Of a stretch of 54,206 nucleotides of DNA, positions 5,827-9,682 are shown piece by piece (position 1 is the first letter of the stretch; every line of letters starts with the position of its first letter). A program made the translations under genes and the position numbers. A model generated the notes under the pieces. The model searched no databases. It was not told where the DNA came from and worked only from the letters and a program-made list of their open reading frames with translations. Source of the stretch: an uncultured Actinomycetes bacterium (GTDB lineage: Bacteria; Actinomycetota; Actinomycetes; Nanopelagicales; Nanopelagicaceae). Where the stretch lies: NCBI GenBank assembly GCA_903924485.1, contig CAIYBL010000051.1:1-54206 (forward strand), read 5' to 3'.

Positions 5827-6716
5827 TGATTTCTAACAAGTCCTGGCTTCCTGCCTATATAGCTTTGGGAATTGTGTGGGGATGTTCATTCATTTTTATT
5901 AAATTGGGATTGGATTTCTTAACTCCCGTCGGAGTCGCCTTTGGGCGCACCGCCCTTGGTGCACTTGCACTAGTTGTTGTCAGCAAATCTCGAAAGATTT
6001 CACTACCCACAGATAAGCGGATATGGGCGCACTTGTGGGTTGTAGCGATGTTACTCAACGTTGTCCCTGGGGTGCTCTTCGGAGTTGCCGAAACTCACGT
6101 CACGTCAATTTTGGCAGGAATCATTAATGCAGTAACTCCACTTATGACGCTGTCTGTGATGATGATTGTCTTTCGCGAAGAAAAGGCCAAGAGTCACCAG
6201 GTGATCGGCCTGGTGATTGGTTTTCTCGGAGTTCTCACCGTCCTTGGTGCATGGCATGGGCTTGGCAGCAATCCCATCTCCGCGATTATTGCTTTACTCG
6301 CTGCAGTGCTTTGCTACGGGTTTGCCTTTCCCTATTCGCGAAAGTTTGTCTTGCCTTACAAGTTAGAACCAGAAGCTGCTGCAACCACACAAGTCTCACT
6401 CGCGGCTGCGACACTTCTGCCTTTCTATTTGATGGACGGAATCGCCCGTGATTACTACCGCCCGGGTCCGGTATTCGCGATGGTTGCATTGGGAGTCTTT
6501 GGCACGGGATTTGCCTACATTTGGAATTTCCAGATTATGGCAGCTGCGGGAAGCGCCATCGCTAGCTCGGTCACATATGTGACGCCAGTGATTGCCGTTC
6601 TCGTAGGTGTGATTTTCCTAGGTGAAGGTATTTCCTGGAATCAACCAGTAGGTGGCGCAATAGTTTTATTAGGCGCGGCAATCAGCCAAGGGAGAATTCG
6701 CCTTAATCGATCTTAA
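5817..6716 (+). CDS. EamA-family (DMT) drug/metabolite transporter
   Basis: About 299 residues with roughly ten hydrophobic helices in two EamA repeats. The first repeat begins with YIALGIVWGCSFIFIKLGLDFLTPVGVAFGR, a hallmark of this family; the second ends with VTPVIAVLVGVIFLGEGISW. EamA proteins export amino acids, metabolites or drugs; the substrate is unknown here. GTG 5817 is chosen over GTG 5814 because it lies six bases after a -10 box. The 3' end overlaps the convergent NicO gene by 14 bases. Confidence 0.85.
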   Translation: MPSLISNKSWLPAYIALGIVWGCSFIFIKLGLDFLTPVGVAFGRTALGALALVVVSKSRKISLPTDKRIWAHLWVVAMLLNVVPGVLFGVAETHVTSILAGIINAVTPLMTLSVMMIVFREEKAKSHQVIGLVIGFLGVLTVLGAWHGLGSNPISAIIALLAAVLCYGFAFPYSRKFVLPYKLEPEAAATTQVSLAAATLLPFYLMDGIARDYYRPGPVFAMVALGVFGTGFAYIWNFQIMAAAGSAIASSVTYVTPVIAVLVGVIFLGEGISWNQPVGGAIVLLGAAISQGRIRLNRS

Positions 6717-7890
6717 AAGCATCACGAATTGGCCCTAATTCAATTCCCGCCTTTGCGTGGTCAGAGATTTCACCGCGGTTGAGTTGTGAAGTATGTGCCT
6801 TGTTGTGCCAACGCTCTTCAATTTTGCCAAAGCGCCAGAGAGCCAAGGCAACAATCCACACCACTGCGAAGAGCCCGACAATTATGAAGCCAGCAGAGTT
6901 GAGATTAAATCTTCCCGCGTAGTCCCATAGTCCACCTGTAAGGTTGAGCTGCTTAACAATCACTTGCAGGATTTCAAGGCCTCCAACAAAGAGCGCAACA
7001 GAAACAGAGAGCCCGGTAATCACAATGTTGTAATACACCTTGCGAACGGGTTTGGAAAATGCCCAGCCGTATGCGAAGTTCATGAATGAACCATCAATAG
7101 TGTCGAGCAAACTCATTCCTCCGGCAAAAAACATCGGCAAAGAAAGTATTGCCCACCAAGGAAGCCCTGCAATTACGGATGACCCAGCAAGTACAAGTAA
7201 TCCGATCTCCGTTGCGGTGTCAAAGCCAAGGCCGAAGAGAATTCCAAGCGGATACATTTTCCAACTAGCGTCAATCCGACGCGCTATTGGACCAAAGAAG
7301 CGCATCAGCAAGCCTCGTGAGTTTAAGTGCTTTTCTAGCTCTTCTTCGTTATACATACCCTTTCGCATGTCAAAGAAAACTCGAAGAATTGAAATCAAGA
7401 TAACTAGGTTGAGAACGGCGATCAACATCAAAAACGTTCCACTGATTGTTGTCCCGATAAGTCCCGTGTAATGGTGCAACGAAGAATTCTGATCTTTTAG
7501 TTGAACACCTAGCGCTTTGATACCAAAGTTGAGCAAGATTGCGAGCGTTGCAACGACCGATGAGTGGCCAAGGGAGAAGAAGAACCCGACCGCGAGGGGG
7601 CGCTTTCCCTCCGACATCAATTTACGAGTCGTGTTATCAATGGCGGAAATATGATCGGCATCAAAGGCGTGACGCATGCCTAGTGTGTAGGCCAGGGCAG
7701 CGGTGCCCCATCCAAAGAGGGAGCCATCTGACAACTTGTAGTGCCCGCTGGTTGCAGCGAACATGAGAGCGGCACCGGCGATATGCAAAAAAGCAATGAA
7801 CCCAAACATCGCGTATATACGGCGCCATTCATCGCGACTCAGGCGCTGGCGCAAGGGGATCCGCTGGGGCTCCTTCACGACGATATTCAT
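6703..7890 (-). CDS. NicO/NiCoT-family nickel/cobalt permease
   Basis: 395 residues, integral membrane. The signature H-x4-DH of NiCoT permeases is visible as RHAFDADH (H74, D79, H80), and LGFDTATEIGLL is the second family motif. These permeases take up Ni2+ or Co2+ with high affinity. ATG 7890 is preferred because GAGGGG lies seven bases upstream; a TTG at 7896 also exists. A perfect palindrome of Nur-box form lies upstream between the likely -10 and the start, which points to nickel uptake repressed by nickel. No urease, hydrogenase or Ni-SOD gene is in the window. Confidence 0.9.
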   Translation of the reverse strand: MNIVVKEPQRIPLRQRLSRDEWRRIYAMFGFIAFLHIAGAALMFAATSGHYKLSDGSLFGWGTAALAYTLGMRHAFDADHISAIDNTTRKLMSEGKRPLAVGFFFSLGHSSVVATLAILLNFGIKALGVQLKDQNSSLHHYTGLIGTTISGTFLMLIAVLNLVILISILRVFFDMRKGMYNEEELEKHLNSRGLLMRFFGPIARRIDASWKMYPLGILFGLGFDTATEIGLLVLAGSSVIAGLPWWAILSLPMFFAGGMSLLDTIDGSFMNFAYGWAFSKPVRKVYYNIVITGLSVSVALFVGGLEILQVIVKQLNLTGGLWDYAGRFNLNSAGFIIVGLFAVVWIVALALWRFGKIEERWHNKAHTSQLNRGEISDHAKAGIELGPIRDAFKID

Positions 7891-7919
7891 GCTCAAACCC
7901 CTCGGAACGTCCTAATTCT

Positions 7920-7942
7920 TAGATGCAAATCGTTTGCATCTA
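7920..7942. promoter_or_regulatory. Nur-box-like operator upstream of the NicO gene
   Basis: Perfect palindrome with 10-base arms (TAGATGCAAA and TTTGCATCTA) around a 3-base centre. It contains TGCAA-N5-TTGCA, which matches the consensus described for the Fur-family nickel regulator Nur of Streptomyces (TTGCAA-N5-TTGCAA) apart from the outermost bases. It lies 30 bases before the ATG at 7890. Confidence 0.7.
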
Positions 7943-7946
7943 GCAA

Positions 7947-7952
7947 AGTATA
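7947..7952 (-). promoter_or_regulatory. Putative -10 box of the NicO gene
   Basis: Reading leftwards the strand shows TATACT, a near-consensus -10 hexamer, four bases before the Nur-like palindrome. Transcription would start inside the palindrome, so a bound dimer would block initiation. No clear -35 is seen. Confidence 0.5.
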
Positions 7953-8086
7953 AAGGGAGATTTTCACCTCGTCCTGCTGAAATTGAGCATTCTCACAGCA
8001 GGTAGGCGTGCTTTTGGTTGGCTTGCTGGGGGCGCTGTCCGTAACCTTGGAACTTGTAGGTTTCCTCACTCGATTGGAGTTTCATC

Positions 8087-9682
8087 GTGTTTGCGAAAAT
8101 TAGATCCCCACTTATATTGATTGTGGCTTGCGTCCTTGTCCTACCCATTATTTCTGAGTCACAAGCCAGCGCTGCTCGAAAATCTGTGGCATCCACGGCA
8201 TGCGGGTGGGATAGCGCAACTGGGTGGGTTAAGCGAGAAAATCTCAAGACTGGTGATGCAGCCTGGTCAAAAGGAATTCCCCTTGAATACAGTGGAGATT
8301 ATGGGTCTAAAGAGAAGAAAACTTCTCCGATCAAAACACTTGCTCGAGCACTCGCGGCGAAAACTGTTGAGGGTTGGTTTGATGCTCAAAGTGCCACTTG
8401 TGGCGAAACTATCGGATTACACATTACGGGAAATGACGTACCCGTAAATATTCGAGTTTTCAGAATGGGCTATTACGGCGGTACTGGTGCACGTTTAGTG
8501 GAAACCATTACGACAAAACCAATTCCTGTAGGGTCAAAGATACAAATATCTTCAGCGCCGAAATCCACCGTGACAACGAGTTGGCCGGTGGCATGGGAAT
8601 TCAAAGTTACCAAAGATACCGTTCCAGGTCAGTACTTAATCAGGTTGGATGACGGAAGTGGCGATGCTTCATTCGTTCCGTTGACAGTTATTGATCCACA
8701 GAACAAAAGCGAAATCACTTTTGTCTCATCGGTTTTAACATGGCAGTCCTACAACCAGTGGGGCGGATATTCGTTGTATAAAGGTCCAAATGGAACGCGT
8801 GCTACAAAAGCAAGCGTTGTTTCGTTTAATCGCCCGTACGATGGCGATGGTTCTGGTCAATTTAGATACATGGAATATCCGGTATTAAAATTGGCCGAGC
8901 AACTCGGCATTGATATGAACTACGTAACTGATATTGAATTGAATAAAGATGCATCGGCACTTGCTAATACAAGCTCAATTATTCTCGGAGGCCATGCAGA
9001 ATATTGGACGACACGGATGCGAGAATCTCTTCAGTCTGCAGTTGATCGTGGTGTAAATCTTGTTTCCTTCGGCGGAAACGCAATTTACAACAGACCTCTT
9101 TTGGATAGCAGCGCGCGAGAAATGACAATGTGGCGTGGTTCTAAATCAGATCCCACTCGTTTGAACCCGCTATTGGCTACCACCGAATGGCGTAACGCCC
9201 CAATTCATCAGCCAGAATCAATGCTTTTAGGCTCCCAATATGTCGGACTTGGGGTTGATGGCGATTACACGATTGCACATCCAGATCGCTGGCCGTTCAA
9301 TACAGAAAGACACCCCAATGCTCTAAAGAACATCGTGGGGCGCGAAGTTGATTCACCTCTATATGCACCCGGACCTGCAGTTGAATCGCTTGCTAGCTCG
9401 AGCATTAAATTCCGCGGGCAACTTATTACGACAATGGCGACCTATTACACAAACTCAAAAGGCGCGGGCATAATCGATATTGGGACAAATGGATGGACCT
9501 GCGTCATTGATGATATTTGCCCGTGGCATCCAAATATTTCCAAAGATACTCAAACCGATGCTCGTTTAGTAACGATCGAGATTCTCAAGGGACTGACTAA
9601 GGGTCCGCTGGCTAAATGGAGACCAGCCATTACCGATGTGCCGGCTCGCGCAAAGAATGCTCACTCGGGAGCAATTGCCTAA
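8087..9682 (+). CDS. Secreted N,N-dimethylformamidase beta-subunit-like protein
   Basis: 531 residues from GTG 8087, with GGAG eight bases upstream. An N-terminal signal peptide (about 1-29, ending SQASA) indicates export. The region FRMGYYGGTGARLV, the later WQSYNQWGGYSLY, and GHAEYWTTRMRESLQSAV followed by VSFGGNAIYNR are typical of the large domain shared with the DMFase beta subunit. True DMFase hydrolyses dimethylformamide, but most homologues are uncharacterised and the small alpha subunit is not encoded nearby. The actual substrate is unknown; hydrolysis of an amide outside the cell is an inference. Confidence 0.75.
   Translation: MFAKIRSPLILIVACVLVLPIISESQASAARKSVASTACGWDSATGWVKRENLKTGDAAWSKGIPLEYSGDYGSKEKKTSPIKTLARALAAKTVEGWFDAQSATCGETIGLHITGNDVPVNIRVFRMGYYGGTGARLVETITTKPIPVGSKIQISSAPKSTVTTSWPVAWEFKVTKDTVPGQYLIRLDDGSGDASFVPLTVIDPQNKSEITFVSSVLTWQSYNQWGGYSLYKGPNGTRATKASVVSFNRPYDGDGSGQFRYMEYPVLKLAEQLGIDMNYVTDIELNKDASALANTSSIILGGHAEYWTTRMRESLQSAVDRGVNLVSFGGNAIYNRPLLDSSAREMTMWRGSKSDPTRLNPLLATTEWRNAPIHQPESMLLGSQYVGLGVDGDYTIAHPDRWPFNTERHPNALKNIVGREVDSPLYAPGPAVESLASSSIKFRGQLITTMATYYTNSKGAGIIDIGTNGWTCVIDDICPWHPNISKDTQTDARLVTIEILKGLTKGPLAKWRPAITDVPARAKNAHSGAIA

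Follow-up and report, generated by a model that had tools for sequence, protein, structure and literature searches.

The question raised by this locus is which regulator, if any, acts at an inverted repeat situated between a nickel permease gene and its predicted promoter. The stretch analysed (hereafter the window; 54,206 nt) belongs to a draft genome assigned to the Nanopelagicaceae, whose 189 contigs total 1.92 Mb, and "family" below refers to the genomes assigned to this same family or, for nicT promoters, to all loci whose product is at least 74% identical. The nearest nicT loci are those of freshwater actinobacterial MAGs, several of which are labelled Candidatus Nanopelagicaceae or Planktophila. 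The features of the nicT region are as follows.

6703..7890, minus strand: nicT, NiCoT-family nickel permease of 395 aa (NCBIfam NicT equivalog NF052500; Pfam NicO)
7898..7903, minus strand: RBS-like GAGGGG, 7 nt before the nicT ATG
7920..7942, no strand assigned: putative Nur operator, TAGATGCAAA-TCG-TTTGCATCTA (from the sequence, its uniqueness in the window and the flanking arms conserved in 62 nicT promoters)
7924..7938, no strand assigned: core Nur box TGCAA-N5-TTGCA, TGCAAATCGTTTGCA (exact match)
7947..7952, minus strand: nicT −10 element TATACT, 4 bp before the repeat (a TACCCT-like hexamer is correspondingly placed in relatives)
7970..7975, minus strand: weak nicT −35 element AGGACG with a 17-nt spacer (TGGACA-like in most relatives)

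The nicT product scored 500 bits against NF052500 (cut-off 450) and 325 bits against Pfam NicO. In the gene orientation, the upstream region reads AGGACG, 17 nt, TATACT, 4 nt, TAGATGCAAACGATTTGCATCTA and then GAGGGG, with the repeat overlying the predicted transcription start. The sequence-only reading had placed a palindrome just past the −10 TATACT, in agreement with the distance of 4 bp found here from the hexamer (minus strand, 7952-7947). The nicT promoter was absent from the listing of a generic promoter scan; the −35 and −10 elements occupy equal positions in the nicT relatives (TGGACA ... TACCCT). With the putative operator lying over the predicted start, a repressor bound there would keep RNA polymerase off the promoter.

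On the forward strand, positions 7920-7942 read TAGATGCAAATCGTTTGCATCTA. Both 10-bp arms are fully complementary and the middle TCG is not self-complementary, so that the "perfect 23-bp palindrome" described earlier holds for its arms but not for its 3-bp centre, the whole being a 10-3-10 inverted repeat. The TGCAA-N5-TTGCA motif that had been noticed within it is exact at 7924-7938 and is the sole exact copy in the window, where no other inverted repeat combines arms of 10 or more with a gap of 8 or less; eight dinucleotide shuffles of the window gave 0, 0, 1, 0, 0, 0, 0 and 0 equally good repeats. With two mismatches, however, the motif was found 43 times in the window against 46.5 expected. 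The bare motif therefore says little on its own, and it is the conservation that does prove the site. Likewise, a scan of the genome with one mismatch (110 sites versus 39 for a reversed-pattern control) is too loose for naming a regulon. The two exact TGCRAA-N3-TTYGCA matches in the genome besides those at nicT and on contig C110, C78:819 and C96:5244, were rejected as chance occurrences because they lie inside long reading frames.

Conservation was assessed on 62 distinct family loci, of which the nicT products are at least 74% identical (74-100%). An exact TGCRA-N5-TYGCA is located upstream of nicT in all 62, against 0.09 expected from shuffles, which preserve dinucleotides and ignore relatedness. 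In the alignment, however, the leader sequence on either side of the box is nearly random, so that shared ancestry alone does not account for the conserved block. Relative to the core, this block spans roughly −5 to +19 as CTASW-TGCRAA-N3-TTYGCA-WSTAG, and such a form of about 25 bp would be a new detail of the Nur site. The absence of the palindrome from orthologous nicT promoters, which had been named as an observation that would speak against a Nur operator, was found in none of the 62.

Published work gives the Nur box as tTGCaa-N5-ttGCAA (PMC3919588), and the nicT site, aTGCAA-ATCGT-TTGCAt, agrees with it in spacing and is exact at the TGCAA and TTGCA positions, as the sequence-only reading had proposed in comparing it with the Streptomyces operator. 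A search of the genome for a Nur-type regulator, suggested at the same time, revealed two Fur homologues, one Zur-like and the other Nur, so that the second observation named as contrary, a genome without any Fur-family regulator, was not made either.

C110:8592-9005, strand not stated: nur, nickel-sensor Fur homologue (best solved relative 3EYY; ygfZ neighbour)

The Nur protein matches 3EYY (Streptomyces coelicolor Nur) with an E value of 7.7e-44 and 54% identity over 129 aligned residues, and is its best solved relative by a margin of 90 bits. The equivalents of S. coelicolor His33, 70, 72, 81, 88, 90 and 126, which we take to be metal-site residues, are kept without exception in the family (48 of 48 Nur proteins). 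A point on the opposing side is that His86 and His87 are replaced by Leu and Thr in the Nur of the source genome. A ygfZ-like gene comes after nur, and S. coelicolor nur likewise adjoins ygfZ (PMC4531530). Taken together, a box of Nur spacing and half-sites overlaps the promoter of a nickel gene, is conserved before its orthologs and coexists with a Nur protein, in support of the proposal that nickel uptake would be under Fur-family control. The second Fur homologue resembles actinobacterial Zur/FurB and adjoins a ZIP transporter gene.

The box is not confined to the nicT type of importer. A second NiCoT type (40-44% identical) carries it in 10 of 10 family promoters, and nikM (ECF type), in relatives using this other nickel importer, carries the exact box in 19 of 21 family promoters and in 12 of 18 promoters of other class members, while the shuffles gave 0.01-0.09 expected exact boxes per promoter set. 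Among 91 family genomes, 60 have a NiCoT, 24 have a CbiM/NikM match and 8 have neither in full; the sole overlap of NiCoT and NikM among them (G078) comes from a match scoring under the family cut-off. NiCoT and NikM therefore substitute for each other across the Nanopelagicaceae, and the putative operator appears to have been retained while the importer was swapped, a new detail for this regulator. A single box type, predicted to control nickel import, is thus kept before three kinds of importer. The relatives without NiCoT in which nikM has the same box are those of loci L203, L249-L278 and L285-L294. In two further genomes, both without nikM, the NiCoT is damaged: that of G012 (L319) is broken with the box intact, and that of G008 (L318) is a C-terminal remnant only.

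Distant NiCoTs have the box in 19 of 55 cases. Where a distant genome shows a clear box, it mostly also encodes a Nur of at least 50% identity, and the distant NiCoTs without the box are mostly from genomes without a close Nur. The Acidimicrobiaceae NiCoTs (about 62-65% identical) are mostly without the box, and the Fur proteins of these genomes are only 32-40% identical to the Nur of the source genome. The exception is Mycobacterium kyorinense (L140), in which a perfect TGCAAATGATTTGCA stands 113 bp upstream of the NiCoT gene, with a best Nur match of only 33% identity, which counts against Nur as the bound protein.

Another point against the Nur reading is that similar boxes precede genes other than those for nickel. 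In the source genome and many of its relatives, the sequence TGCRA-N5-TYGCAANTAG precedes cysK-cysE and also separates a thioredoxin-like gene from DUF4395, and this occurrence would be a further new detail.

C91:12394-12413 (L187), strand not stated: cysK-cysE box, TGCRA-N5-TYGCA with right flank AANTAG
C110:8070-8089 (L002), strand not stated: DUF4395 box, after the thioredoxin-like gene, TGCRA-N5-TYGCA with right flank AANTAG

These sulfur-gene boxes are located at or upstream of the −35 element and have asymmetric flanks, the left being unconserved, in contrast to the nickel boxes, which lie over the start or the −10 element. The cysK boxes were found by the pattern itself and thus give no unbiased count. 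The DUF4395 set was drawn from nur loci irrespective of the box, which is carried by almost every family locus having both the thioredoxin-like gene and DUF4395; in the non-family genomes examined, of which few carried DUF4395, none was seen near that gene. We regard it as possible, though rather unlikely, that the Nur regulon of the Nanopelagicaceae has been rewired so that Nur acts also at the cysK-cysE and DUF4395/thioredoxin/rhodanese boxes besides the nickel importers. If true, the rewiring would couple the supply of cysteine and thiols to the nickel status of cells that depend on a cysteine-ligated nickel superoxide dismutase (NiSOD). The box before DUF4395-nur was also considered for autoregulation of nur, and this was rejected because the box remains next to DUF4395 at loci where nur is over 1 kb away from it. 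Additional AANTAG-flanked boxes were detected at L188-L195, L198 and L201, the genes preceded by boxes of this kind being cysK-cysE, DUF4395 and DUF4395-rhodanese. The DUF4395 reading frame of the source genome (L002 1004-1464) starts only at GTG 1141, since ATG 1004 opens a different frame; the discrepancy may reflect a frameshift or an assembly error.

The same similarity of boxes allows that the nicT site is bound by another regulator, that of the cysK-cysE and DUF4395/thioredoxin sites, with nickel import belonging to a sulfur/thiol regulon. Both sets of boxes are indeed present in the source genome, with a similar 15-bp core and a partly similar flank. The nickel-importer boxes, however, reach Streptomyces-sized genomes and nikM, whereas the few non-family DUF4395 loci examined gave none; the placement and left flank of the two sets differ as described above, and the nickel set is already explained by the known Nur box. 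We consider this alternative very unlikely. Less likely again is a Zur operator, by which the zinc-sensing Fur paralogue would control nicT. The genome encodes a Zur-like protein, and both boxes have the 7-1-7-like inverted-repeat form common in the Fur family, but the ZIP gene adjoining the Zur-like gene is directly preceded by a different, Zur-type box, TGAAAATGATTGTCA (L001 2592-2606), and in all 62 promoters the nicT site keeps GC where the ZIP box has GA.

A slightly smaller probability still is left to the repeat acting as RNA, either as a hairpin or as a metal riboswitch in the nicT leader. A transcript starting far enough upstream would contain a 10-bp stem with a 3-nt loop, but the predicted start lies inside the repeat. 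In 24 of 62 relatives, moreover, an A faces a C in the stem and breaks a pair although neither DNA half-site is disrupted, and no Rfam match was obtained at E values up to 1 in 6600-8300, with the NiCo and cobalamin riboswitch families included; these two observations make the hairpin unlikely. The chance level of the two-mismatch motif in the window would be in agreement with a functionless palindrome, but the exact box in every nicT promoter of the set, together with that before the other importer types, refutes this by conservation and leaves it a negligible probability.

We therefore favour, with a probability of roughly 0.9, the identification of 7920-7942 as an operator of Nur, at which nickel-loaded Nur would repress nickel uptake. 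It would represent a very well conserved member of a kind of site already known. Nickel would act as the co-repressor, as it is known to do with Nur (PMC7055735). When cell nickel is ample, a Ni-loaded dimer of the source-genome Nur would occupy the site over the nicT start and block RNA polymerase, turning nickel uptake off; when nickel is scarce, apo-Nur would be released and NicT made, and the imported nickel would serve NiSOD.

The genome does encode such a nickel enzyme. No Nur target enzyme had been noticed near nicT, but sodN (NiSOD) and the maturation protease gene sodX are present on another contig. A Nur box before sodN, which had been suggested for checking, was not seen on inspection by eye of the 65-bp spacer of the divergent sodN-sodX pair (L009 1882-1946). 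NiSOD is nearly universal in the family (source genome and 90 family genomes). Fe/Mn-SOD, in contrast, was detected in none of the Nanopelagicaceae genomes searched, the source genome included, whereas the same search gave matches in 12 of 14 control genomes and in 17 larger class members, indicating that the classical Nur target sodF is gone. As NiSOD is the SOD found and Fe/Mn-SOD was undetected in the family, nickel seems to be essential to the superoxide defence of the Nanopelagicaceae. Published acI genomes are without cobalamin synthesis (PMC5301498), making nickel the more probable requirement than cobalt. The literature collection searched yielded no paper dealing with Nur or NiSOD in acI.

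The Nur regulon of S. coelicolor includes sodF and nikABCDE (PMC3919588, PMC7055735). The present system resembles it in the spacing and half-sites of the box, the orthologous regulator next to ygfZ, the predicted control of nickel import and the presence of NiSOD, but differs in that the importer is a NiCoT permease instead of NikABCDE and the putative operator takes an extended form, as a repeat spanning about 25 bp. Because sodF is absent, the sodF-derived small RNA that tunes sodN in S. coelicolor cannot act here, and the nicT site would fit a Nur operator but not the Streptomyces sodF/sodN switch. NikR, acting on E. coli nikABCDE, is likewise a nickel-loaded repressor of nickel uptake, although it belongs to a different protein family and has its own operator. 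The Zur operators of Actinobacteria are also Fur-family inverted repeats at metal-uptake promoters, with TGAAAAT-type half-sites (here before the ZIP gene) and another metal. The NiCo and cobalamin riboswitches share the location before nickel or cobalt transport genes but are RNA elements.

The Nanopelagicaceae (acI) are among the most abundant freshwater bacteria. They would illustrate a Nur circuit after the loss of sodF, and their nickel limitation could be read from one marker, the expression of nicT or nikM. In a 9.7-Mb class relative (L284, G145:C1:594500-598500), the NiCoT gene is immediately followed by sodF in the same orientation and preceded by a Nur box with one mismatch. The divergent neighbour of nicT in the window (8087-9682, plus strand) encodes a DMFA2_C-domain protein. 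Of 73 related loci, 21 have a relative of this protein close to nicT, and the box is present whether or not such a relative occurs.
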